The notes under the pieces: model-generated
Told to the model about the DNA's origin: nothing
What the model saw: the letters and a program-made list of their open reading frames with translations, nothing else
Database searches by the model: none
Shown: positions 2,280 to 58,056 of the stretch, piece after piece
Position numbering within the stretch: position 1 is the first letter of the stretch
Layout of the letters: the number at the start of each line of letters is the position of its first letter
Position numbers and translations under genes: made by a program
DNA from: Bryopsis sp. KO-2023
Taxonomy: Eukaryota > Chlorophyta > Ulvophyceae > Bryopsidales > Bryopsidaceae
Direction of reading: 5' to 3'
Assembly: GCA_030272585.1 (NCBI GenBank)
Contig: BSYQ01000006.1
Coordinates: 4,179,001 to 4,243,000, forward strand
Length of the DNA: 64,000 bases

Positions 2280-5200
2280 CCGCCAGGCAGGAAACTGCTT
2301 CGTCTGAGCCTGGCCGACGCAAACGTCGTAAGCGAAACAGAGTTCGTAGGCGGCGTAGGAAGCTAAGATCAAAAGTAGGTGCCTCGAAAAAGGTTTGTAC
2401 TCACAGCGGAAAACCTGAGGAGCGGACTAGTACACCGCGTGAAGAGAGAACAGAGACACTCTCCACATCTACCCAATCGGCACATGACAACTGCGATTGG
2501 AAAAATGAACAGAAGGAAAGCACACCGGATGAGATGGACGCGCCTCATGCGTCATCTGCATCTCTTCCCTCTGTTAGTGAATCTGTGGGCTCATTGGAGT
2601 CGCAGAGTAGTCTACAGGAGTCCCTGCCTGCAGACGTAGACGATAGTGGGTCAGAAACAACCCAGCGGTCTACCACAGAGCGAGTTAATGTGTCAGAAGT
2701 TCGATCAACTTCATCAACCAAGGGTGACACATGCCCTCTGTTAAAAATTCAAGAAGTGCCTGTGAGAGGGTACGAAGTAAAAGCACGGATCAAGACCACG
2801 GACCTTTATGCATTCATTGATTGTGGAAGTACAGCAAACTATATCCATGATAAGGTAGCGCGTGATCTCGGGTTGTCGATTACACCAAGCTCCAAGAGAG
2901 CAATGTTGGCAAACGGAGATATTAAAGAACTGGTTGGCAGCTGTAACAACCTCCGAGTAAAGATAGGAGGGCTGAAGTGCAAAATGAAAGCGGATCTGTT
3001 CCCAGACCTTGGTTATGACCTAATATTGGGCATGCCTTGGTTGCAGAAAGAAAACCCCCGCATAGACTTTCAGCAGAATGAGATTTCAGTTTGCAAAAAC
3101 AGCCAAGTGTTTCATCTCCCGTTGCGTCATCCAACCCAAGAGAGTATTGAACCTGAACGAAAAGTACAGTCGATACTGCAAGAAGTGCCAGTGACTGAGT
3201 GTTCAGCTAAGAGAATGATGCGTCATCTCAAAACAGAGACAGCATTCATGGTTGTAGTGCAAGAGTCTGAAGAGAAAGCTTTAGGCCAACATGAATTGCC
3301 TGACGCAATAGAGCGAACACAGCCATTCAACACTGAGGATGAGATTGGCAAACTTATTCGTTCAGACACCCCTGCCGAAATTAAAAAGGTGGTAGAAACA
3401 CACCGTGGTGTGTTCCCTCGTGATTTACCCCCAGGGATCCCTCCGAAGAGAAAAGGTCATGAGTTTAAGATAGACCTGGAGGATCCAACACCTATCCATC
3501 GTCCAATATACAAGCTTTCACCAGCAGAGCTGGATGAAGTGAAAGCACAAGTGGACTACCTTCTGGAACAGAAGAAAATCAAACCATCCGAGTCCCCTTG
3601 GGGCGCGCCAATCCTGTTTGTACCGAAAAAGGATGGAGGCTTAAGGATGTGTGTGGATTACAGGTGGATCAATAAGGTGACGGTGAAAAATCGGTATCCT
3701 TTACCCCTGCCAGAAGAATTGATGGATAGAGTGTTCAAAGCCAAAGTGTTCTCAAAGTTAGATCTGCGATCAGGCTATTGGCAATTTCCAGTAAGGCCAT
3801 CTGATACAGATAAAACAGCGTTCCGCACGAGATACGGTCACTTTGAGTTTTTGGTAGCGCCTTTTGGGCTAACCAATTGCCCAGCGCAATTCCAAACTCT
3901 AGTGCAAGACCTACTCGCAGAGTTTTTAGATGATTTTGTTGTTGTCTTTATTGATGACATACTCATCTTCTCTGAAAACATGGAACAGCATGCCGAACAC
4001 TTAAAGAAAGTCCTGTCGCGACTAGCAGAATATCAGCTTTTTGCTAAGGCAAGTAAAAGTGAGCTGGCTGTCGCAACAGTAGACTATCTTGGCTACCGCA
4101 TTAGCGGAAGTGGGTTAAAACCACAGGAACAAAAAGTGAAGGCAGTGAAGGAGTGGAAGGAACTACAGAGTGTTAGTGATGTACGTAGCTTCCTTGGAAT
4201 GGTTTCATACTACAGGAAATTCATTCCCCAGTTTGCACATGTTGCTGGACCACTCCATGACTTAGTGAAAAAAGACCATCCCTGGAGATGGGGACAGGTT
4301 GAGCGTGGCGCATTCAATGAATTGAAAAAGCGTTTAAGTCAAGCTCCCGTCCTTATTTTTCCAGATGCGTCACTGCCTTACACTGTGATCACTGATGCGT
4401 CGAATGAGGCCATCGGTGCCGTGTTAACACAGGATCACGGAGAGGGGCTACAGCCAATAGCTTACCTCTCACGTAGATTCAAGCCTGCCGAGCTTAACTA
4501 TGCACCATACGACAAAGAGTTGTGTGCAATATGTTATGCGATGGTGCAGTGGAGACATTATCTAGAAGGTTGTGCGGGTGGAGTAACAGTGTTCACTGAC
4601 CACCAACCTCTGACGCATATTCTGTCGCAGAGGAACCTTTCTAGAACCCAAGCAAGATGGCTTGAGGCGGGGTACCTGACTTCGATCAACCCCAAGATCT
4701 CCTATATCAAAGGCAAGGCTAATGTGTTAGCAGATGCTCTCTCCCGCAGTGTTCCTAAGCCCGTGGAAACTGCGATGAACATTTCCACTTGGCAAGTGCA
4801 TCAAGCAAGCCAAGACGAGTGGAAACAAGCCCTCCAAGCTGATAACTCCTTGGTGAAGATATTGCGGAAGCTTGAGAGTGGCGAGGAAGTTGAGGGATAT
4901 TTCCTCAGAGAGGGAATACTCTGGACGGTCCCAAAGAGAGGATTAGTCGAGAAAGTGGTGGTTCCTAAAGGCCAGCGCAATAAGATCATGAAGGAGTGCC
5001 ATGAGACACCTTCAGCAGGCCATACAGGACCAGCGCGAACAGGAGAAATCCTCGCGCGGCGATATTGGTGGAAGGGGTGGATGAATGAGTTGAAGGCATT
5101 TGTGCGCGAATGCCCTGTGTGCCAACAAATAAAGGCTGACACACAGAAGCCTATGGGCTTACTTCAACCCCTGCCAATACCTGAGCGGAAGTGGGAGCAG

Positions 5201-6274
5201 ATTACCACTGACTTGGTGACAGATCTACCAGCATCCAATGGGTTTAGTGCTGTAGCTGTCTTTGTCGATAGACTTACCAAGTTTGTGCATTTCGCCCCAT
5301 GTACTAAAGAGATTACCGCTGCAGGATACGCCCAACTTTTTATCGAACATGTTTACCGCAACCATGGCCTACCTAAAGTGATTGTGTCTGATAGAGACCC
5401 TCGCTTTACCAGCAAGTTCTGGCAGACGCTTTTTAAAGCTCTGGGTACAGAGATTCGTATGAGTACAGCTTACCACCCTCAAACGGATGGGCAGAGTGAG
5501 GTTACCATACGTACTCTGGAAAATTTTCTAAGGCCATATGCTGAGAGGTATCCCCATAAGTGGGTTGAGTATTTACCTACAGCAGAGTTTGCAGCAAACA
5601 ATGCAGTGAATGCGAGTACAGGGTTCGCACCTGCATACTTGATGTATGGGTACCATCCAGAAACACCAAACATTGGTGGGACGGCAACGCAATTTCAAGT
5701 GGAAGCAGTTAAGACTATGGTAGCACGGATGGCACAGGACTTAGATACCGCAAAAGCATATTACTCTAGAGCACAACACAGAATGTGTGTGAGTGCAAAC
5801 AAGAAGAGGAAAGATATTGCTTTTGAGAAAGGGGATAAAGTCCTGATAAAAAGCCGTTTTATTCCGTTGGCTGCTTTGAACAAAGTGAGTCCCAAACTGC
5901 GCCGTCGATTTGTGGGTCCCTTTGAAATTGTGGAGAAAATATCAAAGGTGGCTTACAGAGTTCAACTTCCGGAAACATGGCTCATTCACCCAGTGTTTCA
6001 TGTTTCTAAGTTCAAGCGTTATCACGCCTCGAGTGATAACAGCAGGCAGATACAACCTCCAGAAGGAGAGTTGATTGGTAGCGAAGTAGAGTATGAGGTC
6101 GAAAATATCCTAAGGGCTAGAGGTAAACGCAATCGTGAATACCTAGTGCTGTGGAAAGGATACGATCTACTTGACGCTACTTGGGAACCTGAAGCTAATC
6201 TGGTTAACGCACCAGATATACTTCGCGCATTTAAAGAGAAAGAAAGAAAAGAGTTGCAGAAAGGAAGAGAATAG
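2261..6274 (+). CDS. pol: Pol polyprotein of element A1 (PR-RT-RNaseH-IN-chromodomain)
   Basis: This replication polyprotein makes cDNA and integrates it. The frame is open from the slippery site; the first ATG is at 2534 (1246 aa from there), but a Gag-Pol fusion is more likely than initiation there. Numbering from that ATG: aspartic protease with a DCGS active site (Asp96), reverse transcriptase with FIDD (Asp474/475), RNase H (TDAS motif), integrase with an HHCC zinc finger (H..H..CPVC) and catalytic triad D893, D953, E989 (35 residues between the last two), a GPF module, and a chromodomain near 1186-1240 (YEVENIL..., WKGYD, WEPE). All catalytic residues are present. The region before the protease is very basic. 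Chromodomains of this class are known to steer integration to chromatin marks. Confidence 0.96.
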   Translation, partial: KKNVKLTARQETASSEPGRRKRRKRNRVRRRRRKLRSKVGASKKVCTHSGKPEERTSTPREERTETLSTSTQSAHDNCDWKNEQKESTPDEMDAPHASSASLPSVSESVGSLESQSSLQESLPADVDDSGSETTQRSTTERVNVSEVRSTSSTKGDTCPLLKIQEVPVRGYEVKARIKTTDLYAFIDCGSTANYIHDKVARDLGLSITPSSKRAMLANGDIKELVGSCNNLRVKIGGLKCKMKADLFPDLGYDLILGMPWLQKENPRIDFQQNEISVCKNSQVFHLPLRHPTQESIEPERKVQSILQEVPVTECSAKRMMRHLKTETAFMVVVQESEEKALGQHELPDAIERTQPFNTEDEIGKLIRSDTPAEIKKVVETHRGVFPRDLPPGIPPKRKGHEFKIDLEDPTPIHRPIYKLSPAELDEVKAQVDYLLEQKKIKPSESPWGAPILFVPKKDGGLRMCVDYRWINKVTVKNRYPLPLPEELMDRVFKAKVFSKLDLRSGYWQFPVRPSDTDKTAFRTRYGHFEFLVAPFGLTNCPAQFQTLVQDLLAEFLDDFVVVFIDDILIFSENMEQHAEHLKKVLSRLAEYQLFAKASKSELAVATVDYLGYRISGSGLKPQEQKVKAVKEWKELQSVSDVRSFLGMVSYYRKFIPQFAHVAGPLHDLVKKDHPWRWGQVERGAFNELKKRLSQAPVLIFPDASLPYTVITDASNEAIGAVLTQDHGEGLQPIAYLSRRFKPAELNYAPYDKELCAICYAMVQWRHYLEGCAGGVTVFTDHQPLTHILSQRNLSRTQARWLEAGYLTSINPKISYIKGKANVLADALSRSVPKPVETAMNISTWQVHQASQDEWKQALQADNSLVKILRKLESGEEVEGYFLREGILWTVPKRGLVEKVVVPKGQRNKIMKECHETPSAGHTGPARTGEILARRYWWKGWMNELKAFVRECPVCQQIKADTQKPMGLLQPLPIPERKWEQITTDLVTDLPASNGFSAVAVFVDRLTKFVHFAPCTKEITAAGYAQLFIEHVYRNHGLPKVIVSDRDPRFTSKFWQTLFKALGTEIRMSTAYHPQTDGQSEVTIRTLENFLRPYAERYPHKWVEYLPTAEFAANNAVNASTGFAPAYLMYGYHPETPNIGGTATQFQVEAVKTMVARMAQDLDTAKAYYSRAQHRMCVSANKKRKDIAFEKGDKVLIKSRFIPLAALNKVSPKLRRRFVGPFEIVEKISKVAYRVQLPETWLIHPVFHVSKFKRYHASSDNSRQIQPPEGELIGSEVEYEVENILRARGKRNREYLVLWKGYDLLDATWEPEANLVNAPDILRAFKEKERKELQKGRE

Positions 6275-6722: not shown

Positions 6723-8537
6723 ATGGCTGCCGACACACCCGCCGCAATTATTGCGAGGTTGGAAGCGGAGGTAGCTCAAAAAGAAGAGGAGCTGCAGCAC
6801 TTTGTTACGACCGCAGAAGAAGTGCTGCAGAACAATGAGGCCTTAACCCGGCAGCTCTCAGAGTTGAGTGACCGGACGAAAGCAGCTGAGGCTGCGAAGG
6901 AGGCAGCGGAGAAAGCCAAGGATAAGGCGGAGGCGGAAAAGAAAGAAGCGGAGGACAAGACTAAGGTCTTGGAAGAAAAATTGGAAGCCATGAAGCTGAA
7001 AAAGCAAAGGTTCCAATCTCACATGATGGCTAACCATCGTGAGAATGACCTCCGTAAGCAAGCTCTCGGGGGAATGGTGGATCGATTTACCGCGGTAGAG
7101 GAAACGCTGCAGCGAGCTGTAGCAACCGCGTGGAGTGCAGCGGCCAACAACCTTAAGAAGGAATTGGCAGAACAAGAGCTGCAGATCGATTTGCTGGGAG
7201 AGTCCCTCAGAGACGGCTCTGAAAAACTTCAAGTGCAGAGCGAAACAACGGACAAGATGCTGCGTTTGAACCCGCCGGTACCAGCACCACGGGTACGCGA
7301 AGAACTGGATCGCCAAGTCCAAGTTCTGTTGTCAAACGCAACACTTGATCTGGAACCGTCCAAGGACGATGATGCGGGAGGCTCAAGCAAGGGCAAGGGG
7401 AAAGGGAAAAACAAACGCCCAAGCTCGCCGTGTAGGGATGAAGATCCACACGGAAAGAGAAGGCGAGAGGACGGTGACGATGAAGGTGGTGAGCCACCGA
7501 GGGATCGTATGCCTGGAGATGCAGCAAGAGCCAACTTGTTACTCAAGTTAAAGGCTGCCGCATTACAAACTCCAGCACCCTCACAACCAGCACCAACAGT
7601 TCAGACTCCCGGAGATGAGGCTACCGCAATAGCACCGGGGGAGGACTTATTCGACATGAGAGAGGAGGAGCTTTTGGACTTGGATTTTAACGAAGAAATT
7701 GACTTCGGCAGTCCACCTCCTAGGCTCGAAGGTCCTAGTTCTGAACTGGAGGACGGGGAAATACGGAATGATGAAGGGCCAAGCCAGGTGACAGAGGTTC
7801 AGCGTGCGGTCCATCCACCGTTGGAGTTAGCTCCAACAGAAGCAGCACTTCGGGCTTTCCGAGAAAAGGTTAAGCTCAGAAGACTAAGGGCGGCTGCTCA
7901 GGACAAAGTGGATGCTGCACCCAGCGAAGTGAACCTGTCACGGGAGGATATCGAGGAGGCTTGCAACCCCATCACTGCGTCAGAGAAATGGCCGAAGGTC
8001 CAATATACTAACCCCAGGGACCGAGCCTTGCAAAATTACCGCGGCAACCGGCACTTTCACGAGTTGCCCATGTGCATTTGGTGCGGGAGAAGCCCAATGC
8101 AAGCAAGTGCTCAGCGGCTGACGCAGAAGAAGTATTCCGTCCTTCCTTGTGGGTATCACCTCGTGTGTGATGCTCATTGGTTGGCATACTCGATGCTGGG
8201 GCGCATCGTCACGGCGGTCCAAAAAGTCGCGGAAGTGGACAACAAGTCCATCGCCACCGTCTCCCCATTCTCTCTACCTGCCCATATGTTGAAGCTGACA
8301 CGCTCGACGTTCGCAGAAATCCCTCCGTTCCCGGCTGAGCACGAGAAGTTGCCACACTGCAACATGTGTGTGAAGCGGCAGCTCAAGGTGTCCGGCATCA
8401 CAAGGGATCTGCCATTCCTTAAGTCCAAGAGGGTGGCTGCCGCATTTGATCCCTGTGTCCGGTATCGTGCAGTGCAGCAAGCGCATGCGCAGGAGCAGCG
8501 TGCTATTCAGCAAGCGCAAGCGCAGGAACAGCGTTAA
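6723..8537 (+). CDS. ORF3 of A1: coiled-coil protein with C-terminal RING-like Cys/His array
   Basis: This is a 604-residue protein encoded downstream of pol, in its own frame; function unknown. Residues about 8-190 are Ala/Glu/Lys-rich heptads (coiled coil). Residues 210-275 are charged and Lys/Arg-rich (possible nuclear signal), and the middle is acidic. The C-terminal part has the ligand pattern C451-x2-C454-x21-C476-x2-H479-x2-C482-x2-H485-x60-C546-x2-C549, the order of a RING-type cross-brace with H in place of the sixth Cys. The tail has a short repeated AHAQEQR-like motif. ORF3 of B and C have the same architecture with little other similarity. The start MAADTP is conserved in all three A copies. 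It does not look like an envelope protein: there is no signal peptide or membrane segment. Possible roles are a ubiquitin-ligase-like factor or an accessory nucleic-acid-binding protein. Confidence 0.85.
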   Translation: MAADTPAAIIARLEAEVAQKEEELQHFVTTAEEVLQNNEALTRQLSELSDRTKAAEAAKEAAEKAKDKAEAEKKEAEDKTKVLEEKLEAMKLKKQRFQSHMMANHRENDLRKQALGGMVDRFTAVEETLQRAVATAWSAAANNLKKELAEQELQIDLLGESLRDGSEKLQVQSETTDKMLRLNPPVPAPRVREELDRQVQVLLSNATLDLEPSKDDDAGGSSKGKGKGKNKRPSSPCRDEDPHGKRRREDGDDEGGEPPRDRMPGDAARANLLLKLKAAALQTPAPSQPAPTVQTPGDEATAIAPGEDLFDMREEELLDLDFNEEIDFGSPPPRLEGPSSELEDGEIRNDEGPSQVTEVQRAVHPPLELAPTEAALRAFREKVKLRRLRAAAQDKVDAAPSEVNLSREDIEEACNPITASEKWPKVQYTNPRDRALQNYRGNRHFHELPMCIWCGRSPMQASAQRLTQKKYSVLPCGYHLVCDAHWLAYSMLGRIVTAVQKVAEVDNKSIATVSPFSLPAHMLKLTRSTFAEIPPFPAEHEKLPHCNMCVKRQLKVSGITRDLPFLKSKRVAAAFDPCVRYRAVQQAHAQEQRAIQQAQAQEQR

Positions 8538-8731: not shown

Positions 8732-9152
8732 TGTTAGTCTTTTAGCGCTATACGAGGTAGTTTGGGATAGAGCCGAGGGTGGCTGACGCATGCGGGTTCG
8801 CGAGTAAGACAGATTAGACCCAGAGTTTGGGGCATGCGTCAGCGTACTACACTTAGGGGTACTTAAGAGGCCCACTCGTTGTTTTGACACTCATAGTTAC
8901 TTTGTAAGAACTCGGGATTCGTGGGATTGGTGTGTTCCCGCTTGTGTGTGTGTTTGTGTGTGTGTGTGTTAAGTGTTTGCCTGACGCAATCACTTCCCAA
9001 CCCAAGTGCTCTAGTAGCGTTCACAACCGCGCTAGCTAGAGAGTTGTCTAAACCAACAAACCCCACAAGTATACTTGCGTTAGCCAGCAAGTTATCACGA
9101 ATCCAATCAACACAGCCGACCACTATTGCGTCACCCACAAGCTTCACTATCA
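8732..9152 (+). repeat. 3' LTR of A1 (421 bp)
   Basis: The LTR begins TGTTAGTC and ends CACTATCA, matching the 420-bp LTRs of A2 and A3. It is preceded by a G-run (8720-8727), the likely polypurine tract. It contains a GT-rich microsatellite (near 8942-8970). Compared with A2 and A3 it has small differences near 8890, so A1 belongs to a slightly different lineage. The 194 bp between ORF3 and this LTR (8538-8731) are GT-rich and noncoding. Confidence 0.93.
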
Positions 9153-17899: not shown

Positions 17900-19168
17900 C
17901 TATGACTCCCCTGGAGCGGCCCCTTGAGCTGCTCCCTTTCTCACTCGCTTAGAAGGCTTACGCGCGACCTGATGGTGGACTAACTGGTGCTGACTGAAGT
18001 TCATATTTCGAGCTCCCTTGAAAGCGTACCCGTGTGCTTGCTCCACGACTAAGGTAGCATCTCTTACACGAGATGAGGTAACTGTCTTGGTCCACCTAAC
18101 CTTGACCATTGCTGCTACATCTGCAGCATGACAGAGGTTACAATGTGTGAAGTTACCGACTCCCGGGTACCCCTTCTCCTTGTTCACTGATGTAGTAAAG
18201 CCCCAGTTGTTTTCATCGTCGCCTGCAGGATCCCTTTGCAACCCGTCAGCTACCCAAGCTTTTCTCCAGCATTGCTCTTTGGTGCAAAGACGATGAGCTC
18301 TACAACTGAATTGTCGCACAGGAGCATCAACGTCGCGGAAGCACAAGCTACAAGTACTATGCACCTCCTCCAGCGGCCCAGAAACCAGACTAGCCACCAC
18401 CACTTGCTGCTCTTCTGATGCTTCGTCATTCTCTTCACTTTCGTACTCCTCCTCCTCGCTATTCTCACAAGTATCTGGAGGTTCTGACTGGGTGGAATGG
18501 GTGTGAGATATGTCCTCCGAGGGCTCGAGTCCCCCACCCACACCACTTTCAGGCTCTTCAATCTTGGGGGCCATTTTCACCCAACGTCGGAATCGGTCCA
18601 GCTCCTTGCTTACCGTCTTGTCGTGCTCCTTTGTTCGCTGCAACTCTTGCTGCAATTCACGAATTTTAGCATCATACTCCTTTCTCGTTTTCGTTTTTTC
18701 TTGTTGCCGCGCTTCAGCCAGTTCTTGTGCTATTCCCTTCGCCGTCGCCTCCAAAACCGCTACCCTCTTCTCTGCCCTTTCCGCCCTTGCATATTCATTA
18801 CGTCTATTGAGCTCTGCATAAAAAGCTGACTGCAGTGCAGACAACACATCAGGGGGTTGTCTTTGACCAGGCTCGGCAACCCTGGGAAATGCTGGTGGCG
18901 GAACTCCCATAGGCGTGAGAAGCATCGGTGTCTGTGTCGGAGGAACGGCCGGTGCTGACACTACAGGGGTCGTCGAGATAGTGGCTGTGAGAGGTGCTGC
19001 AGTCGTTGCTACCACTGGGGCTGACACCGACACGCGCATTCCCGATGCCGAACGCCGGGTAGTAGGAGGCCTCGGAGGTTTGTCCATCGTAGAGCGATTC
19101 CGTAACCACGCTTTTCCCCTCCAACTACCTCGTTGCTGATCCCTTCTGCTAAGCTGTTTCCCCGCCAA
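17900..19168 (-). CDS. ORF3 of B1: coiled-coil protein with RING-like Cys/His array
   Basis: This is a 422-residue protein encoded after pol, separate from it by 289 bp; function unknown. Residues 1-95 are basic then Pro/Thr/Val-rich; 105-200 form a coiled coil; 205-255 are acidic (runs of Glu/Ser). The C-terminal ligand pattern is C273-x2-C276-x12-C289-x2-H292-x2-C295-x4-C300-x42-C343-x2-C346, the same order as ORF3 of A and C and with the same x12 spacing as C. A Trp follows the sixth ligand in all three families (HW or CW). The tail is Lys/Arg-rich. A near-identical copy in B2 is split by A2. No signal peptide or membrane segment is visible. Confidence 0.85.
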   Translation of the reverse strand: MAGKQLSRRDQQRGSWRGKAWLRNRSTMDKPPRPPTTRRSASGMRVSVSAPVVATTAAPLTATISTTPVVSAPAVPPTQTPMLLTPMGVPPPAFPRVAEPGQRQPPDVLSALQSAFYAELNRRNEYARAERAEKRVAVLEATAKGIAQELAEARQQEKTKTRKEYDAKIRELQQELQRTKEHDKTVSKELDRFRRWVKMAPKIEEPESGVGGGLEPSEDISHTHSTQSEPPDTCENSEEEEYESEENDEASEEQQVVVASLVSGPLEEVHSTCSLCFRDVDAPVRQFSCRAHRLCTKEQCWRKAWVADGLQRDPAGDDENNWGFTTSVNKEKGYPGVGNFTHCNLCHAADVAAMVKVRWTKTVTSSRVRDATLVVEQAHGYAFKGARNMNFSQHQLVHHQVARKPSKRVRKGAAQGAAPGES

Positions 19169-19196
19169 ACTTACTTTAGTTTGGATTATCCGAGAT

Positions 19197-19445
19197 GTCT
19201 TGTCACACCGTCACATCGCTTGTAGCACCTCTAGCTTCGCTGCTACCAAAGGCGTCTAAGGGCTTGCTACGCTGGGGCTTTCAGAGGTCTTGTCACAGCG
19301 TCACATCGCTTGTAGCACCTCTATCTTTGCTGCTACCAAAGGCATCTAAGGGCTTGCTACGCTGGGGCTTTCAGAGGTCTTGTCACAGCGTCACATCGCT
19401 TGTAGCACCTCTATCTTTGCTGCTACCGCTACCAAAGGCATCTAA
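19197..19445 (-). repeat. 90-bp tandem repeat, about 2.8 units, between pol and ORF3
   Basis: Units start at 19197, 19287 and 19377, the last one partial with a small internal expansion. The unit is a multiple of three and is open in one plus-strand frame, but that frame has no sense in the element. The array is retained in B2 (37172-37420). It fills the pol-ORF3 gap, where a promoter, splice site or internal ribosome entry signal for ORF3 would be expected. Confidence 0.85.
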
Positions 19446-19457
19446 CCTTGCCAACCA

Positions 19458-22400
19458 CTAGCGCCTCCGGTGACGTCTCTTTTTGGTACACCCCTTTTCG
19501 AGCTCCGCCACCTTTTCTTCCGCATTTTCCAAGTTCGCTTCCGGTTCCCATGAATCCTCCGAAACATCATATCCTTTCCATCTTACCAAGTACTGGGTTT
19601 GTCCCCTGGATATTCTCTTGTCTAAAATTTGTTCCACCTCATACTCTTCCTCTCCATCCACCAACTCTGGTCCGGGTTGCAGCAGTTGCTTTCTCCCAGG
19701 GAATTCATGTGGTTCCTCCTCTTGTGCTGATTTTAGTTTAGAGATATGGAACGCATTGTGCAACTTCCCAAATGCTTCAGGTAGGTCCAGCCTCACAGTG
19801 ACGTCCGAAATGCACTCAGAGATGGTGAAAGGCCCACAATACTTTGCTGTCAGCTTGCGACTCAACGTTGGTGACAGCTTCAAATCGTGCGTAGAAAGAA
19901 AGACTCTATCGCCGGGACAGTAGTGGCCTCCCCGCCGAAGACGGTTAGCGGTCCTCCGCTGACGCTCCTGAGCTCGGAAGAGGCAAGCCCGGGCCGCGAC
20001 GAGGGCGGTAGTCCACGTAGCCCACCAGTCATCGGCAGCAGGCGAGAGAGTAGGAGCAGCACGATCAATTGGGAGGCTAGGCTGATAGCCATAGACGAGG
20101 TAGAAAGGAGAAAATCCGGTAGACTCGTGAATGCTCGAATTATAGGCAAACTCCGCAGCAGAAAGGTGTAAATCCCAATCGCATCCAGTAGGCTGCACAT
20201 AACTCCTTAGCACAGTTTGAACTGTCCGATTAGAACGTTCGGTTTGGCCATCAGTTTCTGGGTGGTAGGCACTCGACATAGCCAAGGTAGTGCCACAAAG
20301 TTGCCATAAGGCTCTCCAAAACGCTCCCGTGAACCGTGCATCTCTGTCAGAAGTGATGCTACAAGGTATGCCATGGAGCCGCACTATGTGGTCAAAGAAA
20401 AGTCGTGCCACCTCGGCTGCTGTGACAGTTTGCTGTGTGGGGATCAGATGTAGCATTTTGCTAAAGCGATCTACCACCACCAGGAGATAATTATGGCCTG
20501 CAGCAGTGGTGGGTAATGGACCCACGAAGTCTAACGCCACGTCTTGCCAACGTTCATCTGGAACAGGAAGAGGTTGCAACAAACCCATCGGTTTTTGAGT
20601 AGAGGGTTTATTGCGTTGACAAGCCAAACAAGTAGCCACATACCGCTGCACACTTGCCGATACTTTGGGCCAGAAGTAGTGTTGCTGCACCCGAAAAAGG
20701 GTACGGCGACGCCCAAAATGTCCAGCTAAGGCAGAGTCATGACACTCCTGTAAAACGGTTGCTTGCATACTCCTGGGTATCCACCATTTCCAGGTTCCAG
20801 CGACGTGCCGCCACAACCGGACTCCATCCCACCGCACATGCGGTGGCTTGTGTGCTGCAACAATTAAAGTGTTGCAAAGCGGGTCCTCCATATATGCGTT
20901 CTTCACCTTTTCCTGGAAGACGGTAGCACCTGCTACTGTGGCAAAGAGCTCCTCCTTTCGGACCTTTTGGTGTGTGGCACGGCTTAGCGCGTCGGCTACT
21001 ACATTCTCCTTTCCTGGACGATACTTAATTTCGTATTTAAACTCCTGCAACACCTCCATCCAGCGAGCTTCGCGCTTGGAAAGATTTGGTTGTGTCTGTA
21101 GATAACGCAATGGCGCGTGATCAGTATAGATCACAAACTCCTGAGCATCGAGGTAATGTCGCCAAGTCCTCAAAGCATGGATTATAGCAAGAAGCTCCTT
21201 TTCATGGGTAGCATAGTTTAATTCCGCGGGATTAAGTTTCCGGCTTTCATAGGCCACAGGTTGTTGTCCATGTCCTTGATCTTGGGTAAGCACCGCTCCT
21301 ACTGCATGGTCGGAGGCATCGGTGGTCACCTCAAATTTGAGCGCTGGATTAGGAATCAACAAGACTGGTGCGTTGGCGAGGGCCTCCTTCAAACTCGCCA
21401 TTGCAGTAGTCGCAGCCTCATCCCACTTCCACTCTGTGCTTTGTTTGAGTAAATGGGTCAAGGGCTGAGCTATGGCAGAAAAGCCTTTGATAAAACGGCG
21501 GTAGTAATTAGCTAGGCCCAAAAACGATCGGAGCTCCTTTAATGTTTGAGGTTCAGGCCACTCCCGAATCACCTGGATCTTTTCCTGTAATACTCCAACT
21601 CCCAAAGCACTGATCTCATGTCCGAGGAACTCCACCTTGGTATTGCCAATCTCACACTTCTTGTTAGAAACATAGAGTTTCTGCTCCCGTAGCACCTGGA
21701 AGATTTTCCGTAGATGCCCTTTGTGTTCCCGCCAACTCCGACTGTAAACTAGTATGTCATCCAAATAGACAACACAGAAAACGTCCAAATACTCGTGCAA
21801 CACATGGTGCATAGTATTCATGAACGTGGCAGGAGCGTTTGTGAGCCCAAAGGGTAGCACCACGTACTCGTAGAGTCCATAGCGCGTGCGGAATGCCGTT
21901 TTCTCACAATCTTCAGGCTCGAGACGTACTTGGTGGTAACCAGAACAAAGGTCAATCTTACTGAAGACCTTACACCCTTGTACCTGGTCCATGAGGTCCT
22001 CTATCCTTGGGATGGGGTAGCGATTTTTAATAGTGAGTTTGTTTAGGGCTCTATAATCGACGCACATCCTTAGCTTGCCATTCTTCTTGGGAACAAAAAT
22101 CACCGGTGCTCCCCATGGCGACTTGCTGGGTTGAATGAAGCCTTGTTCAAGCAACTCAACGAGTTGCTTCTTCAGTTCTTTCTGCTCCGTGATGCTGAGT
22201 CGATACAACCCTTTCTTCTGCGGGACGGCCCCTTCCACTAACTCTATCTTATGACGTACGCCTCGGTCCGGGGGTAGCTCGCTTGGTAACTCATCCCGAA
22301 ATAATTCGCCAAACTCACTCCTAATTTGCTGCTCCAATCGTTGTGATTCCTCTTTCTTTTCCAGGCATTTAGGAGCTCCTGCTAGTAGGTTATCCTCTTT

Positions 22401-23636
22401 TGCTGCAAACACTTGGACTAAGAAAGCAGGCTCTCCTTTTCTTATTACTGCCCGCATTTGTAATGCTGACAGCAACTCCGGTCCTTCTTGCTGCAACTCG
22501 GGGTCACAGCGTCGCATTTTTAGGCGGTGTCGGCACCCATTTTGTAGAAGGGTGACCATCTTTCTTTTCCAATCAATGACGGGGTTATGTTGCTGCAACC
22601 AGGTCATTCCTAGGATAAGGTCATAGTTGCCCATGGTGATCTCATGTAGCACCTCCACGGAGGTAAACTGCCCTAGTGAGACCGTAGCTTCCAGCTGGCG
22701 ACTGCTACATTCCGCAGTCTCTCCGTCAGCAAGAAGTACTTTCGTGGGATGCTGCGACTCGCTTGGGGTCACTTGGTTTTTAACCAACCATTCTTTGGAT
22801 ATGAAGTTGTTCGAGGCTCCAGAGTCGATCAGTATTTTGGCTTCTTTACCATCCACTGTTCCCACAGTCACCAACATCCCTTTTTCAGCATTGGTGGCAT
22901 TCCCTAGCCTCATAGGTCTGACAGGTTCCAGGCCTCCTTGAGAACCCCTAGTACAAAACTTCTCCATCACCTCCAGTGTCCATCCACTTCCAAATATTGT
23001 GGGTTCCTGTTGGATACTCCCATTGGAAAAATTTCCTAGTTCCTCTCGTGGAACCACACATACATCAGGCTCCTCTTGGGTCTGCCTGCTACTGCTATCA
23101 ACAGGCTCCTCTTGGGTCCGCCTGCTACTGCTATCAACAGGCTCCTCTTGGGGCTCCTCTTGGGTCTGCCTGCTACTGCTATCAACAGGCTCCTCTTGGG
23201 TCCGCCTGCTACTGCTATCAACAGGCTCCTCTTGGGTCTGCCTGCTAGTGTTATCAACAGGCTCCTCTTGGGTCCGCCTGCTACTTGACAGCACTTCTTT
23301 CTCTTCTTTCTGCAGATTCTTCACTCCCGCACATCCGGCTACACTTGACTCCAGATTATGCAATTTGTCTTCTTCCACGCGAGTGGCCACTACTGGCACT
23401 GCTCCCGTCACTTGTGGTGAGGCTACACTTTGTCCTCGTCCACTCTTTCGTCCTTGGTCTTCTGCGACATGCCATTCTGCAGCCGCCTCATAAGAGTGGC
23501 TACACCGGGCCACCTCTGCTTTACTACTGTCCTCTTTCGCCAAAAGTCGCAGGCCAGGAACCCCTCCGGTTCCCGGCCATTTTAGTTTTCCCGGCATTGG
23601 GCCTTCAAATGGCCCATCTTCCCACAACGGAAACAT
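19458..23636 (-). CDS. pol: Pol polyprotein of B1 (PR-RT-RNaseH-IN-chromodomain)
   Basis: A 1392-residue polyprotein from the first ATG, in the -1 frame relative to gag and overlapping it by 55 bp. In order: a long N-terminal extension with a 12-residue tandem repeat (SS-R-TQEEPVD type, about residues 115-190), retropepsin with LIDSGASNNF (about 270), reverse transcriptase with VVYLDD (about 623), RNase H (TTDASDHAVG), integrase with a zinc finger (H..H, CLACQ) and LDFVGP / SDRDARFT / HPETDGQTE catalytic blocks, and a C-terminal chromodomain (YEVEQIL, VRWKGYD, WEPE). It is complete with all catalytic residues. It belongs to a lineage distinct from A/C (YLDD instead of FIDD). Confidence 0.96.
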   Translation of the reverse strand: MFPLWEDGPFEGPMPGKLKWPGTGGVPGLRLLAKEDSSKAEVARCSHSYEAAAEWHVAEDQGRKSGRGQSVASPQVTGAVPVVATRVEEDKLHNLESSVAGCAGVKNLQKEEKEVLSSSRRTQEEPVDNTSRQTQEEPVDSSSRRTQEEPVDSSSRQTQEEPQEEPVDSSSRRTQEEPVDSSSRQTQEEPDVCVVPREELGNFSNGSIQQEPTIFGSGWTLEVMEKFCTRGSQGGLEPVRPMRLGNATNAEKGMLVTVGTVDGKEAKILIDSGASNNFISKEWLVKNQVTPSESQHPTKVLLADGETAECSSRQLEATVSLGQFTSVEVLHEITMGNYDLILGMTWLQQHNPVIDWKRKMVTLLQNGCRHRLKMRRCDPELQQEGPELLSALQMRAVIRKGEPAFLVQVFAAKEDNLLAGAPKCLEKKEESQRLEQQIRSEFGELFRDELPSELPPDRGVRHKIELVEGAVPQKKGLYRLSITEQKELKKQLVELLEQGFIQPSKSPWGAPVIFVPKKNGKLRMCVDYRALNKLTIKNRYPIPRIEDLMDQVQGCKVFSKIDLCSGYHQVRLEPEDCEKTAFRTRYGLYEYVVLPFGLTNAPATFMNTMHHVLHEYLDVFCVVYLDDILVYSRSWREHKGHLRKIFQVLREQKLYVSNKKCEIGNTKVEFLGHEISALGVGVLQEKIQVIREWPEPQTLKELRSFLGLANYYRRFIKGFSAIAQPLTHLLKQSTEWKWDEAATTAMASLKEALANAPVLLIPNPALKFEVTTDASDHAVGAVLTQDQGHGQQPVAYESRKLNPAELNYATHEKELLAIIHALRTWRHYLDAQEFVIYTDHAPLRYLQTQPNLSKREARWMEVLQEFKYEIKYRPGKENVVADALSRATHQKVRKEELFATVAGATVFQEKVKNAYMEDPLCNTLIVAAHKPPHVRWDGVRLWRHVAGTWKWWIPRSMQATVLQECHDSALAGHFGRRRTLFRVQQHYFWPKVSASVQRYVATCLACQRNKPSTQKPMGLLQPLPVPDERWQDVALDFVGPLPTTAAGHNYLLVVVDRFSKMLHLIPTQQTVTAAEVARLFFDHIVRLHGIPCSITSDRDARFTGAFWRALWQLCGTTLAMSSAYHPETDGQTERSNRTVQTVLRSYVQPTGCDWDLHLSAAEFAYNSSIHESTGFSPFYLVYGYQPSLPIDRAAPTLSPAADDWWATWTTALVAARACLFRAQERQRRTANRLRRGGHYCPGDRVFLSTHDLKLSPTLSRKLTAKYCGPFTISECISDVTVRLDLPEAFGKLHNAFHISKLKSAQEEEPHEFPGRKQLLQPGPELVDGEEEYEVEQILDKRISRGQTQYLVRWKGYDVSEDSWEPEANLENAEEKVAELEKGCTKKRRHRRR
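23076..23282 (-). repeat. 36-bp coding tandem repeat in pol N-terminus of B1
   Basis: Six or so units encode a 12-residue Gln-Glu-Glu-Pro-Val-Asp / Ser-Ser-Arg motif, with one short QEEP interruption. The matching array in B2 (50911-51153) has one unit more. The repeats keep the frame and lie between gag and the protease. Confidence 0.9.
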
Positions 23637-25777: not shown

Positions 25778-26758
25778 CTATGACTCCCCTGGAGCGGCCC
25801 CTTGAGCTGCTCCCTTTCTCACTCGCTTAGAAGGCTTACGCGCGACCTGATGGTGGACTAACTGGTGCTGACTGAAGTTCATATTTCGAGCTCCCTTGAA
25901 AGCGTACCCGTGTGCTTGCTCCACGACTAAGGTAGCATCTCTTACACGAGATGAGGTAACTGTCTTGGTCCACCTAACCTTGACCATTGCTGCTACATCT
26001 GCAGCATGACAGAGGTTACAATGTGTGAAGTTACCGACTCCCGGGTACCCCTTCTCCTTGTTCACTGATGTAGTAAAGCCCCAGTTGTTTTCATCGTCGC
26101 CTGCAGGATCCCTTTGCAACCCGTCAGCTACCCAAGCTTTTCTCCAGCATTGCTCTTTGGTGCAAAGACGATGAGCTCTACAACTGAATTGTCGCACAGG
26201 AGCATCAACGTCGCGGAAGCACAAGCTACAAGTACTATGCACCTCCTCCAGCGGCCCAGAAACCAGACTAGCCACCACCACTTGCTGCTCTTCTGATGCT
26301 TCGTCATTCTCTTCACTTTCGTACTCCTCCTCCTCGCTATTCTCACAAGTATCTGGAGGTTCTGACTGGGTGGAATGGGTGTGAGATATGTCCTCCGAGG
26401 GCTCGAGTCCCCCACCCACACCACTTTCAGGCTCTTCAATCTTGGGGGCCATTTTCACCCAACGTCGGAATGGGTCCAGCTCCTTGCTTACCGTCTTGTC
26501 GTGCTCCTTTGTTCGCTGCAACTCTTGCTGCAATTCACGAATTTTAGCATCATACTCCTTTCTCGTTTTCGTTTTTTCTTGTTGCCGCGCTTCAGCCAGT
26601 TCTTGTGCTATTCCCTTCGCCGTCGCCTCCAAAACCGCTACCCTCTTCTCTGCCCTTTCCGCCCTTGCATATTCATTACGTCTATTGAGCTCTGCATAAA
26701 AAGCTGACTGCAGTGCAGACAACACATCAGGGGGTTGTCTTTGACCAGGCTCGGCAAC
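25778..26758 (-). pseudogene. ORF3 of B2, C-terminal part, split by A2
   Basis: This part is near-identical to B1 ORF3 from the Pro-rich region to the stop and includes the whole coiled coil and RING-like array. One difference in the coiled coil end is Pro for Arg (DPFRRW for DRFRRW). The reading frame runs on into the A2 LTR, giving a spurious fused ORF to 26917. The N-terminal 97 or so codons lie 10 kb away at 36851-37143. Confidence 0.92.
26754..26758. other. Target site duplication of A2, left copy
   Basis: GCAAC, repeated at 36851-36855 after the 3' LTR. It proves that A2 inserted in B2 as a normal integrase product. Confidence 0.95.
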
Positions 26759-27178
26759 TGTTAGTCTTTTAGCGCTATACGAGGTAGTTTGGGATAGAGC
26801 CGAGGGTGGCTGACGCATGTGGGTTCGCGAGTAAGACAGATTAGACCCAGAGTTTGGGGCATGCGTCAGCGTACTACACTTAGGGGTACTTAAGAGGCCC
26901 ACTCGTTGTTTTGACATTCACTTTATTTTGTAAGAACTCGGGATTCGTGGGATTGGTGTGTTCCCGCTTGTGTGTGTGTTTGTGTGTGTGTGTGTTAAGT
27001 GTTTGCCTGACGCAATCACTTCCCAACCCAAGTGCTCTAGTAGCGTTCACAACCGCGCTAGCTAGAGAGTTGTCTAAACCAACAAACCCCACAAGTATAC
27101 TTGCGTTAGCCAGCAAGTTATCACGAATCCAATCAACACAGCCGACCACTATTGCGTCACCCACAAGCTTCACTATCA
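26759..27178 (+). repeat. 5' LTR of A2 (420 bp)
   Basis: TGTTAGTC to CACTATCA, matching 36431-36850. It contains a GT-rich microsatellite. The short ORFs inside are chance. Confidence 0.96.
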
Positions 27179-34420: not shown

Positions 34421-36235
34421 ATGGCTGCTGATACCCCCGCCGCAATTATTGCGAGATTGGAAGCGGAGGTAGCTCAAAAAGAAGAGGAGCTGCAGCACTT
34501 TACGTCGACCGCAGAGGAAGTGCTGCAGAACAATGAGGCCTTAACCCGGCAGCTCTCAGAGTTGAGTGACCGGACGAAAGCAGCTGAGGCTGCGAAGGAG
34601 GCAGCGGAGAAAGCCAAGGAAAAGGCAGAGGCGGAAAGGAAAGAAGCGGAGGACAAGACCAAGGTCTTGGAAGAAAAATTGGAAGCCATGAAGCTGAAAA
34701 AGCAAAGGTTCCAATCTCACATGATGGCTAACCATCGTGAGAATGACCTCCGTAAACAAGCTCTCGGGGGAATGGTGGATCGATTTACCGCGGTAGAGGA
34801 AACGCTGCAGCGAGCTGTAGCAACCGCGTGGAGTGCAGCAGCCAACAACCTTAAGAAGGAATTGGCAGAACAAGAGCTGCAGATCGATTTGCTGGGAGAG
34901 TCCCTCAGAGACGGCTCTGAAAAACTTCAAGTGCAGAGCGAAACAACGGACAAGATGCTGCGTTTGAACCCGCCGGTACCAGCACCACGGGTACGCGAAG
35001 AACTGGATCGCCAAGTCCAAGTTCTGTTGTCAAACGCAACACTTGATCTGGAACCGTCCAAGGACGATGATGCGGGAGGCTCAAGCAAGGGCAAGGGGAA
35101 AGGGAAAAACAAACGCCCAAGCTCGCCGTGTAGGGATGAAGATCCACACGGAAAGAGAAGGCGAGAGGACGGTGACGATGAAGGTGGTGAGCCACCGAGG
35201 GATCGTATGCCTGGAGATGCAGCAAGAGCCAACTTGTTACTCAAGTTAAAGGCTGCCGCATTAAAGACTCCAGCACCCTCACAACCAGCGCCAACAGTTC
35301 AGACTCCCGGAGATGAGGCTACCGCAATAGCACCGGGGGAGGACCTATTCGACATGAGAGAGGAGGAGCTTTTGGACTTGGATTTTAACGAAGAAATTGA
35401 CTTCGGCAGTCCAGCTCCTAGGCTCGAAGGTCCTAGTTCTGAACTGGAGGACGGGGAAATCAGGAATGATGAAGGGCCAAGCCAGGTGACAGAGGTTCAG
35501 CGTGCGGTCCATCCACCGTTGGAGTTAGCTCCAACAGAAGCAGCACTTCGGGCTTTCCGAGAAAAGGTTAAGCTCAGAAGACTAAGGGCGGCTGCTCAGG
35601 ACAAAGTGGATGCTGCACCTAGCGAAGTGAACCTGTCACGGGAGGATATCGAGGAGGCTTGCAACCCCATCACTGCGTCAGAGAAATGGCCGAAGGTCCA
35701 ATATACTAACCCCAGGGACCGAGCCTTGCAAAATTACCGCGGCAACCGGCACTTTCACGAGTTGCCCATGTGCATTTGGTGCGGGAGAAGCCCAATGCAA
35801 GCAAGTGCTCAGCGGCTGACGCAGAAGAAGTATTCCGTCCTTCCTTGTGGGTATCACCTCGTGTGTGATGCTCATTGGTTGGCATACTCGATGCTGGGGC
35901 GCATCGTCACGGCGGTCCAAAAAGTCGCGGAAGTGGACAACAAGTCCATCGCCACCGTCTCCCCATTCTCTCTACCTGCCCATATGTTGAAGCTGACACG
36001 CTCGACGTTCGAAGAAATCCCTCCGTTCCCGGCTGAGCACGAGAAGTTGCCACACTGCAACATGTGTGTGAAGCGGCAGCTCAAGGTGTCCGGCATCACA
36101 AGGGATCTGCCATTCCTAAAGTCCAAGAGGGTGGCTGCCGCATTTGATCCCTGTGTCCGGTATCGTGCAGTGCAGCAAGCGCATGCGCAGGAGCAGCGTG
36201 CTAATCAGCAAGCGCACGCGCCGGAACAGCGTTAA
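34421..36235 (+). CDS. ORF3 of A2: coiled-coil/RING-like protein
   Basis: 604 residues, start MAADTP as in A1 and A3; the frame is open 20 codons further upstream but not in A1. It has the same coiled coil, basic and acidic middle, and Cys/His array as A1 (ligands at 451, 454, 476, 479, 482, 485, 546, 549). Substitutions between copies are mostly conservative (for example Ala to Glu near 530, TS for VT in the first heptads) and none hits a ligand, suggesting selection on the metal site. Confidence 0.86.
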   Translation: MAADTPAAIIARLEAEVAQKEEELQHFTSTAEEVLQNNEALTRQLSELSDRTKAAEAAKEAAEKAKEKAEAERKEAEDKTKVLEEKLEAMKLKKQRFQSHMMANHRENDLRKQALGGMVDRFTAVEETLQRAVATAWSAAANNLKKELAEQELQIDLLGESLRDGSEKLQVQSETTDKMLRLNPPVPAPRVREELDRQVQVLLSNATLDLEPSKDDDAGGSSKGKGKGKNKRPSSPCRDEDPHGKRRREDGDDEGGEPPRDRMPGDAARANLLLKLKAAALKTPAPSQPAPTVQTPGDEATAIAPGEDLFDMREEELLDLDFNEEIDFGSPAPRLEGPSSELEDGEIRNDEGPSQVTEVQRAVHPPLELAPTEAALRAFREKVKLRRLRAAAQDKVDAAPSEVNLSREDIEEACNPITASEKWPKVQYTNPRDRALQNYRGNRHFHELPMCIWCGRSPMQASAQRLTQKKYSVLPCGYHLVCDAHWLAYSMLGRIVTAVQKVAEVDNKSIATVSPFSLPAHMLKLTRSTFEEIPPFPAEHEKLPHCNMCVKRQLKVSGITRDLPFLKSKRVAAAFDPCVRYRAVQQAHAQEQRANQQAHAPEQR

Positions 36236-36430: not shown

Positions 36431-36850
36431 TGTTAGTCTTTTAGCGCTATACGAGGTAGTTTGGGATAGAGCCGAGGGTGGCTGACGCATGTGGGTTCGC
36501 GAGTAAGACAGATTAGACCCAGAGTTTGGGGCATGCGTCAGCGTACTACACTTAGGGGTACTTAAGAGGCCCACTCGTTGTTTTGACATTCACTTTATTT
36601 TGTAAGAACTCGGGATTCGTGGGATTGGTGTGTTCCCGCTTGTGTGTGTGTTTGTGTGTGTGTGTGTTAAGTGTTTGCCTGACGCAATCACTTCCCAACC
36701 CAAGTGCTCTAGTAGCGTTCACAACCGCGCTAGCTAGAGAGTTGTCTAAACCAACAAACCCCACAAGTATACTTGCGTTAGCCAGCAAGTTATCACGAAT
36801 CCAATCAACACAGCCGACCACTATTGCGTCACCCACAAGCTTCACTATCA
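36431..36850 (+). repeat. 3' LTR of A2 (420 bp)
   Basis: Reads identical to the 5' LTR of A2, followed by GCAAC (36851-36855) and the rest of B2 ORF3. The stretch 36236-36430 before it is GT-rich 3' noncoding sequence ending in an 8-base G-run. Confidence 0.96.
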
Positions 36851-40182: not shown

Positions 40183-40602
40183 TGTTAGTCTTTTAGCGCT
40201 ATACGAGGTAGTTTGGGATAGAGCCGAGGGTGGCTGACGCATGTGGGTTCACGAGTAAGACAGATTAGACCCAGAGTTTGGGGCATGCGTCAGCGTACTA
40301 CACTTAGGGGTACTTAAGAGGCCCACTCGTTGTTTTGACATTCACTTTATTTTGTAAGAACTCGGGATTCGTGGGATTGGTGTGTTCCCGCTTGTGTGTG
40401 TGTTTGTGTGTGTGTGTGTTAAGTGTTTGCCTGACGCAATCACTTCCCAACCCAAGTGCTCTAGTAGCGTTCACAACCGCGCTAGCTAGAGAGTTGTCTA
40501 AACCAACAAACCCCACAAGTATACTTGCGTTAGCCAGCAAGTTATCACGAATCCAATCAACACAGCCGACCACTATTGCGTCACCCACAAGCTTCACTAT
40601 CA
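40183..40602 (+). repeat. 5' LTR of A3 (420 bp)
   Basis: TGTTAGTC to CACTATCA, followed by AT and the PBS. It reads identical to the 3' LTR at 49857-50276. Confidence 0.96.
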
Positions 40603-49856: not shown

Positions 49857-50276
49857 TGTTAGTCTTTTAGCGCTATACGAGGTAGTTTGGGATAGAGCCG
49901 AGGGTGGCTGACGCATGTGGGTTCACGAGTAAGACAGATTAGACCCAGAGTTTGGGGCATGCGTCAGCGTACTACACTTAGGGGTACTTAAGAGGCCCAC
50001 TCGTTGTTTTGACATTCACTTTATTTTGTAAGAACTCGGGATTCGTGGGATTGGTGTGTTCCCGCTTGTGTGTGTGTTTGTGTGTGTGTGTGTTAAGTGT
50101 TTGCCTGACGCAATCACTTCCCAACCCAAGTGCTCTAGTAGCGTTCACAACCGCGCTAGCTAGAGAGTTGTCTAAACCAACAAACCCCACAAGTATACTT
50201 GCGTTAGCCAGCAAGTTATCACGAATCCAATCAACACAGCCGACCACTATTGCGTCACCCACAAGCTTCACTATCA
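49857..50276 (+). repeat. 3' LTR of A3 (420 bp)
   Basis: Reads identical to the 5' LTR of A3. The right flank is TTATT and then B2 pol sequence. Confidence 0.96.
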
Positions 50277-53242: not shown

Positions 53243-53260
53243 AATCTTGTCGTGCCCTAA

Positions 53261-53272
53261 GCTCCGAAACCA
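53261..53272 (-). other. Primer-binding site of B2
   Basis: Minus-strand TGGTTTCGGAGC, one base from the LTR edge. Confidence 0.8.
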
Positions 53273-53273
53273 A

Positions 53274-53351
53274 TGTAACGAATGGACAGAACGGAAAGGA
53301 ATAACCCGAAGGATAATACTGCTTACAAGATGTTCTCAACAACATATATAC
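53274..53351 (-). repeat. 5' LTR of B2, inner part, split by element C
   Basis: The first 78 bp (+ strand) of the B LTR, ending ACATATATAC. The remaining part is at 63512-63660. The five bases TATAC (53347-53351 and 63512-63516) are present on both sides and fit a C target duplication; without it the two parts add to exactly 222 bp. Confidence 0.9.
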
Positions 53352-53370
53352 ATATATACATATATACATG
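53352..53370. repeat. AT-rich filler at the left junction of C
   Basis: Two extra copies of an 8-base ATATATAC-like unit continue the end of the B LTR and lead directly into C pol. This looks like templated filler from end joining and not like an integrase junction. Confidence 0.6.
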
Positions 53371-55700: not shown

Positions 55701-56021
55701 ATGATACAGGTTGATATGGGGAAGGGAACGATGGTTGATGTGTTGGTATCAGTTCACCCATAATCAAATACATCTAAGAGCGAGCTACAGAGAGCTGAGT
55801 CAAGATAGCGAAGGTAATATCAAAGCGGGCTAGAACCTTGGATGAGACGACACTCAATAGAGGAAGTCTTCCATCAGTGACAAGTGAGTGACTCTATCAC
55901 TTGTATAAACTAGCTAGGCTGCAACCCTCCAGCCCTATTTCGTCAAAAGTTTACGCCGAGCGCACTGAACCTTCAGAAGCAACCGCCACCAGAGCAACAC
56001 ATTCAAAACATTTGCATAAAA
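55701..56021 (+). promoter_or_regulatory. pol-ORF3 intergenic region of C with TATA-like box
   Basis: 321 bp without a coding frame. TATAAA at 55904-55909 lies 118 bp before the ORF3 ATG, nearly the same distance as in family A although the surrounding sequence differs. Confidence 0.42.
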
Positions 56022-57902: not shown

Positions 57903-58056
57903 GCGAGAGCGGAGCCAGAGCCAGAGAGTCAGAGCCGGACAGAGACAGTTTTTCCTTGGGGGTTTTCTTTTCTTTTCTTTTCTTTTCTTTTATTTTTCTT
58001 TCTTTTTGGGTTCTTCTACGGGTGTGGACACCCTTTGGGGGGGGGGGGGGAGTAGT

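Follow-up and report, generated by a model that had tools for sequence, protein, structure and literature searches.

A separate sense gene follows pol in a clade of Bryopsis chromodomain elements

We analyzed a 64,000-nucleotide stretch of DNA (the window; contig BSYQ01000006.1, positions 4,179,001 to 4,243,000) from the 91-Mb genome of Bryopsis sp. KO-2023. The window is part of the nuclear genome of this giant-celled green alga, which a first-pass annotation of the DNA had placed among streptophytes and which is in fact a chlorophyte (Chlorophyta, Ulvophyceae, Bryopsidales). It holds three kinds of chromodomain long terminal repeat (LTR) retrotransposon, here called A, B and C, each with a sense open reading frame (ORF3) downstream of pol (Table 1). 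Searches of the whole genome demonstrated that a large clade of Bryopsis chromodomain Ty3 LTR elements carries this separate sense gene after pol. The ORF3 protein has a coiled-coil-like helix in its N-terminal part, which a variable linker connects to a C-terminal eight-ligand zinc-type domain in which the ligands follow the RING-HC order.

The first-pass annotation had reported the third ORF in A (604 aa, three copies), B and C, and we found all of them at the positions given; the 422-aa length reported for B holds if translation starts at a TTG, but is 395 aa from the first ATG. Pfam matches to the pol of A and B comprised protease, reverse transcriptase (RT), RNase H, integrase, a Tf2-1-like SH3 domain and a chromodomain, and the C pol, of which the window contains only the 3' part, has the same end. 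Chromodomain E-values were 1.9e-12 (A), 8.2e-16 (B), 1.3e-12 (C) and 3.2e-17 for family F, one of the additional families described below; the chromodomains of families D and E were also matched. The protease-RT-RNase H-integrase order in A and B, the chromodomain at the C-terminus of integrase and the 420-bp LTRs of A identify these elements as chromoviruses.

In A, 448 bases separate the pol stop from ORF3. The open frames of ORF3 begin at 6669 (A), 19210 on the minus strand (B) and 55914 (C), in each case past the pol stop, indicating that ORF3 is not a read-through extension of pol. Of 73 near-identical genome copies of the A gene that were scored, 72 lacked an internal stop. Our genome searches scored the best candidates only, so that copy numbers here and below are lower bounds, biased towards intact copies.

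Table 1 Features of elements A, B and C in the window.
Feature	Position	Strand	Basis or remark
pol of A copy 1	2534..6274	+	Pfam; chromodomain at residues 1187-1236
ORF3 of A copy 1	6723..8537	+	604 aa; N-terminal coiled-coil-like helix, linker, C-terminal RING-like zinc domain
ORF3 of A copy 1, proline-free stretch with coiled-coil-like helix	residues 7-183		heptad test
eight-ligand array of A	8073..8369	+	C-2-C-21-C-2-H-2-C-2-H-60-C-2-C
3' LTR of A copy 1	8732..9152	+	ORF3 lies between pol and 3' LTR
ORF3 of B	17900..19168	-	TTG start at 19168 (422 aa); first ATG at 19087 (395 aa)
modelled 148-residue zinc domain of B	17933-18376	-	pLDDT 89.8, pTM 0.83
eight-ligand array of B	18131..18352	-	C-2-C-12-C-2-H-2-C-4-C-42-C-2-C
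pol of B	19458..23636	-	Pfam; chromodomain at residues 1332-1378
second B ORF3 copy	25778..26758	-	broken by A copy 2; B continues at about 36848
5' LTR of A copy 2	26759..27178	+	0/420 differences from 3' LTR
ORF3 of A copy 2	34421..36235	+	604 aa from ATG
3' LTR of A copy 2	36431..36850	+	LTR comparison
5' LTR of A copy 3	40183..40602	+	0/420 differences from 3' LTR
ORF3 of A copy 3	47847..49661	+	604 aa from ATG
3' LTR of A copy 3	49857..50276	+	LTR comparison
3' part of C pol	53247..55700	+	Pfam; RT end, RNase H, integrase, chromodomain at residues 741-790
ORF3 of C	56022..57902	+	626 aa
eight-ligand array of C	57525..57785	+	C-2-C-12-C-2-H-2-C-2-H-57-C-2-C

An eight-ligand array is conserved across ORF3 families

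The ligand order described in the first-pass annotation, with a spacing between the second and third ligands of 21 in A and 12 in B and C, was exact. The ligands are residues 451/454/476/479/482/485/546/549 in A, 273/276/289/292/295/300/343/346 in B and 502/505/518/521/524/527/585/588 in C, giving the consensus C-x2-C-x(12-21)-C-x2-H-x2-C-x(2/4)-[CH]-x(42-60)-C-x2-C, and a Trp follows the sixth ligand in all three ORFs. Among the 159 open frames of at least 100 aa in the window, six contained the pattern, each of them an ORF of A, B or C; no match arose in 100 shuffles of the 159 frames.

The annotation had described the ORF as common to three families, which is correct for A, B and C but understates its spread: it occurs in at least the nine families that were read, and probably in fourteen. 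Used as a query, B recovered many diverged relatives in its own genome (22-38% identity). Families D, E and F were obtained by reading loci, G and H from short stretches, and I through a weak match of the D zinc domain (26% identity, E 0.006); the 79 residues of I that were read contain all eight ligands, with the x4 spacing. Families A-I were thus read in sequence, while J-N are known from matches only. The matched rows number 29 for I, 61 for J (about 43% identical to I), 17 for K, L and M together and 62-63 for N (33-36% identical to H).

All nine families that were read keep the eight Cys/His ligands in the RING order C-C-C-H-C-C(H)-C-C, indicating that the array reflects homology, not chance. 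We aligned 23 sequences that represent eight families, with 12-48% identity between their zinc domains; seven ligands were invariant in this alignment, the remaining one is C or H, and every other column varied. Two further alignments contained an invariant Leu upstream of the array. The array has two subtypes, C5-x2-H6 (A, C, H) and C5-x4-C6 (B, D, E, F, G, I). At loci with a full domain the array was always kept, in A (8/8, L001-L008), B (8/8), C (30/30), D (3/3), E (6/6) and F (6/6). These loci were taken as best matches, leaving out the broken remnants L047, L048, L050, L051, L066 and L067. A PHD-type domain, which has the ligand order C4-H-C3, does not fit the array; the profiles tried were those of Pfam.

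ORF3 is tied to particular pol clades

In families D, E and F, a chromodomain pol end lies just upstream of ORF3. We compared 150 listed D-like pol-end rows with 231 zinc-ORF rows; at 145 of the 150 places a zinc ORF was matched on the same strand no more than 3 kb downstream, whereas random placement averaged 0.8 such places and never exceeded 4. For C-like pol, 118 of 150 places had an ORF3 match within 4 kb downstream, a count that has no random control and that used the rows of the family H query down to E 7.4e-9 together with seven rows from the A and C ORF3 searches. Among the 32 C-like places without a match, six lie in frames of 1818-2306 aa, where ORF3 could be missing, part of a fusion or diverged beyond recognition.

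These six places (genome contig:position C4:2737918, C14:1786595, C16:1303390, C12:2343818, C11:3287764 and C16:1288292) are 70-72% identical to the C pol end and form single frames, with no ORF3 detected downstream; a gag-pol fusion or loss of ORF3 is possible.

Chromodomain elements in general gave a different picture. Among the best 150 chromodomain places, pooling the rows obtained with F, I, H and A as queries gave 34 that lie within 3 kb of a match to the zinc ORF or to ORF3 (random mean 1.0, at most 5). No ORF3 match was found within 3 kb downstream at the other 116, although a more diverged ORF could escape this search. Most of those 116 places belong to two further chromovirus groups, whose frames reach about 1483 and 1781 aa; the first 118 chromodomain rows, which cover these two groups, gave five matches, three of them family D and two at the random level. 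A narrower comparison of the 150 chromodomain rows with 124 zinc rows gave 33 with and 117 without a match (random mean 0.33, at most 2); when 121 of these 150 rows were set against the 231 zinc-ORF rows, 6 had a match. The contrast between 145/150 D-like and 34/150 chromodomain places suggests that ORF3 is tied to particular pol clades and not to chromoviruses generally. ORF3 is found at nearly all sampled D-like pol places and is undetected at most other sampled chromoviruses of the same nucleus, so that elements that carry the gene can naturally be compared with those that do not. Since the alga is cultured and holds many intact copies, biochemistry, proteomics and RNA work can directly test what this third gene does.

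ORF3 follows the main split of pol and is under purifying selection in A and C

Trees of the pol end and of the zinc domain agreed in separating A and C from B, D, E and F; they cover the six families with both regions, from short alignments and with weak support inside the B, D, E, F group. From these sequences, ORF3 appears older than the split of the two pol clades. Between families, the zinc domain is much less conserved than pol: identities of zinc domain and pol end were 18% and 54% for A-C and 32% and 70% for B-D, and for C-H the zinc domains were 48% and pol 87-89% identical.

The first-pass annotation had looked to purifying selection across genomic copies for support, and such selection acts on ORF3 in both families analyzed, with dN/dS (the ratio of replacement to synonymous rates) of 0.112 in A (10 copies) and 0.147 in C (29 copies; L037, which has an in-frame stop, was excluded). 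The corresponding values for the pol end were 0.010 in A (8 copies) and 0.166 in C (29 copies), so the constraint on ORF3 is looser than that on pol in A and about equal to it in C.

In the 29 C copies (loci L009-L038), synonymous divergence was 0.096 in ORF3 (0.109 before the zinc domain) and 0.016 in the pol end. This suggests that C ORF3 and pol differ in history, perhaps through recombination between subfamilies.

Predicted structure of the ORF3 protein

We used AlphaFold2 with the family alignment to predict the structure of the 148-residue zinc domain of B, which gave a mean pLDDT (per-residue confidence) of 89.8 and a pTM (predicted template modelling score) of 0.83. The model begins with a C1/C2 knuckle and a strand, followed by C3-H4, C5 and C6, the last in the first turn of a helix, and continues with strands and C7/C8 leading into a helix; the part between C6 and C7 is longer, and a helix-strand extension follows at the C-terminus. 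RING domains have their elements in the same order, from the C1/C2 knuckle through to C7/C8. The predicted topology of the B domain is RING-like.

The best Pfam result was a match of family E to RING_XB3-XBAT31, which covered the first half only (E 0.0024, 18.3 bits against a curated cut-off of 50). Foldseek searches of the PDB ranked the RING of RNF165 first, with RluD second and third and then PHD fingers and HOIL-1L (E 1.5-2.5), and among viral models RING-named proteins took ranks 1, 2, 5 and 6 (E 0.64-2.2). Together, the AlphaFold, Pfam and Foldseek predictions are consistent with a RING-like cross-brace.

The N-terminal part of the protein is likely to be a coiled coil, judging from heptad periodicity. 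In the longest proline-free stretch of each of seven families, 0-16 of 200 shuffles reached the observed value, the weakest signal being that of family F (16/200), and 28-41% of the residues in these stretches are charged. In all seven ORFs read far enough, the zinc domain starts past the helical part, at residue 136-502.

Arrangement of the elements in the window

Copies 2 and 3 of A have LTR pairs that are identical over 420 bases, indicating that both insertions are recent. Window positions 25400-53351 comprise one B element with two nested A insertions, one in its ORF3 (26758) and one in its pol (about 40182), and the identical LTR pairs of both point to very recent activity. The second B ORF3 copy is part of an open frame, 25778-26917, that is broken by the A insertion at 26758/26759. 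Between pol and ORF3 of the other B element, the spacer (19193-19427) contains 2.6 tandem copies of a 90-base unit with 96% matches.

C-type material occupies window positions 53247-62835, with the 3' half of pol and ORF3 on the plus strand (53247-57902) and gag with the 5' half of pol on the opposite, minus strand (58115-62835); an inversion or two broken elements are possible explanations. Positions 9244-10911 hold a chromodomain integrase fragment from a different chromovirus group, with no ORF3 before the next element; it counts among the chromodomain places without a match.

A RING-like accessory protein and its possible roles

The position of ORF3, its independent frame, its retention, its constraint and its fast divergence between families suit a host-facing protein. 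We favor the reading that a clade of chromoviruses has in ORF3 a genuine accessory gene, whose product carries a RING-like zinc domain, faces the host and may act in the manner of an E3 ubiquitin ligase. The identity part of this statement is very probable; for the whole, including the mechanism, we would give a probability of roughly 0.45. Under this reading the protein would oligomerise through its N-terminal helix, and the Cys/His array would bind zinc as a RING-type cross-brace within a larger domain of about 150 residues. It would be a host-facing accessory protein and not an envelope. As an E3-like adaptor, resembling viral coiled-coil/RING regulators, it could recruit an E2 either to a host factor involved in restriction or silencing or to the Gag particle that the element itself makes. 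The outcome would be easier expression or integration of an element that its chromodomain already steers to chromatin. Given the RING-like core, E3-like ubiquitin recruitment is the most specific hypothesis for ORF3; E3 ligase activity is plausible from the sequence, and we hold the adaptor mechanism tentatively.

Several observations weigh against this reading. The canonical RING consensus has C5-x2-C6, whereas six of the nine families have a C5-C6 spacing of 4 and the remaining three have His as C6; the C6-C7 loop of 40-60 residues is also longer than in a RING finger. E3 RINGs use the residue after C8 and the position C1+2. The former is R or K in 4 of 9 families and the latter hydrophobic or aromatic in 8 of 9, so that E3-type residues are uneven overall. 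The model of the A domain, made by the same method, was poor (pLDDT 56.6, pTM 0.51), and the RING-like topology thus comes from a single confident prediction, that of B. RluD pseudouridine synthases stand at PDB ranks 2-3, between the RING and PHD rows, and no significant profile or fold match was obtained with Pfam or with Foldseek against the PDB and viral models (lowest Foldseek E at least 0.6). ORF3 of C (dN/dS 0.147) is no more relaxed than its pol end (0.166), unlike that of A, and the zinc-domain dN/dS comes from few codons (5 synonymous-only and 3 replacement in A, 12 and 6 in C). Finally, protein, viral-contig and genome-contig searches, all of limited reach, found no homologue outside Bryopsis.

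About as likely as the E3-like mechanism is a non-enzymatic zinc scaffold of the element itself, in which a coiled-coil oligomer would use the RING-like domain to bind protein or RNA, in genomic RNA export, packaging or particle assembly. The poor conservation of the residues known for E3 function fits this explanation, as does a coiled coil with charged stretches, which suits assembly, and the presence of ORF3 at 145 of 150 D-like pol places is what would be expected of an essential gene. A precedent is CERV of the Caenorhabditis elegans element Cer1, a third retrotransposon protein required in the element cycle (PMC10309623). However, the 116 of the best 150 chromodomain places without a detected ORF3 imply that chromoviruses at large do without such a function in their cycle, provided that no more diverged ORF escaped detection, and conservation below that of pol suits a host-facing part better, without proving it.

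A stronger version of the favored reading seems doubtful to us: that ORF3 represents an ancient lineage of RING-type E3 ligases, encoded by retrotransposons and passed on vertically, that remove or relocate a host silencing factor, with ORF3 outpacing pol in a rapid conflict. If true, such ligase-bearing chromoviruses would be the transposon counterpart of viral coiled-coil/RING proteins.

It is unlikely that ORF3 is a captured host RING or PHD-type gene acting on the pathway of its donor, for example in BRE1-like chromatin ubiquitination. BRE1/RNF20 has an N-terminal coiled coil and a C-terminal RING, the same domain order as ORF3; in addition, the first half of family E weakly matches a plant-type RING profile, and pol carries a chromodomain. 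No single-copy host gene was recognized among the rows from the own genome, though these were not inspected singly, and the rows comprise repeated, dispersed places and short remnants. ORF3 also appears to predate the pol-clade split, so that a donor would now be hard to see.

A remnant of an envelope-like gene is very improbable: the position between pol and the 3' LTR and the coiled coils are both common in env-like ORFs, but no 19-residue window in seven families exceeded a Kyte-Doolittle mean of 1.39, short of a transmembrane segment, and the conserved core is the C-terminal Cys/His array. The TRIM-like assignment of the first-pass annotation can be discarded, because true TRIM proteins, which resemble ORF3 in combining a RING-like array with a coiled coil, have the order RING, B-box, coiled coil, and the zinc domain is C-terminal in all seven ORFs read far enough; nor did Pfam give a B-box match at a limit of E 10, with HMMER filters dropping most matches above about 0.1. 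What stands of that assignment is a conserved extra chromovirus protein with a likely coiled coil and a RING-like array.

Comparison with known systems

A protein search with A, which like that with the eight-family alignment scored only the roughly 8000 candidates that had the most words in common with the query, recovered only two Bryopsis KO-2023 predictions, covering 26-29% of the query. The eight-family alignment and the B zinc region gave no protein match at E ≤0.1, which is weak evidence, as the Bryopsis copies were also missed. Three viral-contig scans and one genome-contig scan contained no relative. In the portions covered of the open-licence PMC literature, including PMC6338049 and PMC2864245, we found no LTR element with a RING-like ORF, and a RING-like third ORF of LTR retrotransposons was not found described there.

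Among protein domains, the closest likeness is to the RING finger (C3HC4, e.g. RING_XB3-XBAT31), with which the Bryopsis domain shares ligand order, most spacings and the predicted topology of B. It differs in its length of about 150 residues, and all of its scores are below the curated Pfam cut-off. Baculovirus IE2 and herpesvirus ICP0 are viral regulators that combine a RING with self-association. In the Foldseek search of viral models, IE2 proteins came seventh and tenth (E 2.2 and 2.7), a similarity that is not significant.

The LTR elements of bdelloid rotifers carry ORF3s of env-like, GDSL esterase, DEDDy exonuclease, and transmembrane or coiled-coil types (PMC5408684). Like the Bryopsis gene, these are separate ORFs after pol, of several non-envelope types and some with coiled coils; they differ in that "RING", "zinc" and "ubiquitin" do not occur in the main text of that paper. 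In plants, the additional ORFs (aORFs) of LTR elements, whose function is given as unknown, lie mostly between pol and the 3' LTR (PMC7264820), the location seen in Bryopsis. They are env-like sense or antisense ORFs, however, and "RING", "zinc" and "coiled" are absent from the main text of that report.

Three further systems resemble the Bryopsis elements in having an extra protein or domain. CERV, which is made from a spliced mRNA, functions in exporting genomic RNA from the nucleus (PMC10309623); like ORF3 it is the third protein of an LTR element, and it serves its own element's cycle. Orchid Ty3 elements carry a 2-ODD/AlkB-type ORF with an RNA demethylase domain (PMC9289625), which is likewise an additional conserved domain fixed in Ty3 elements. 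It is found in one family, whereas the Bryopsis ORF3 occurs in numerous families, from both main branches of the pol tree. In the host gene RAG1, a Transib-type transposase is combined with an N-terminal RING ubiquitin ligase (PMC10799480); like the Bryopsis protein with its RING-like sequence, RAG1 links such a domain to a mobile element. In RAG1, which derives from a DNA transposon, the RING is fused to the transposase; in Bryopsis, the RING-like protein is encoded by a separate gene of a retroelement.

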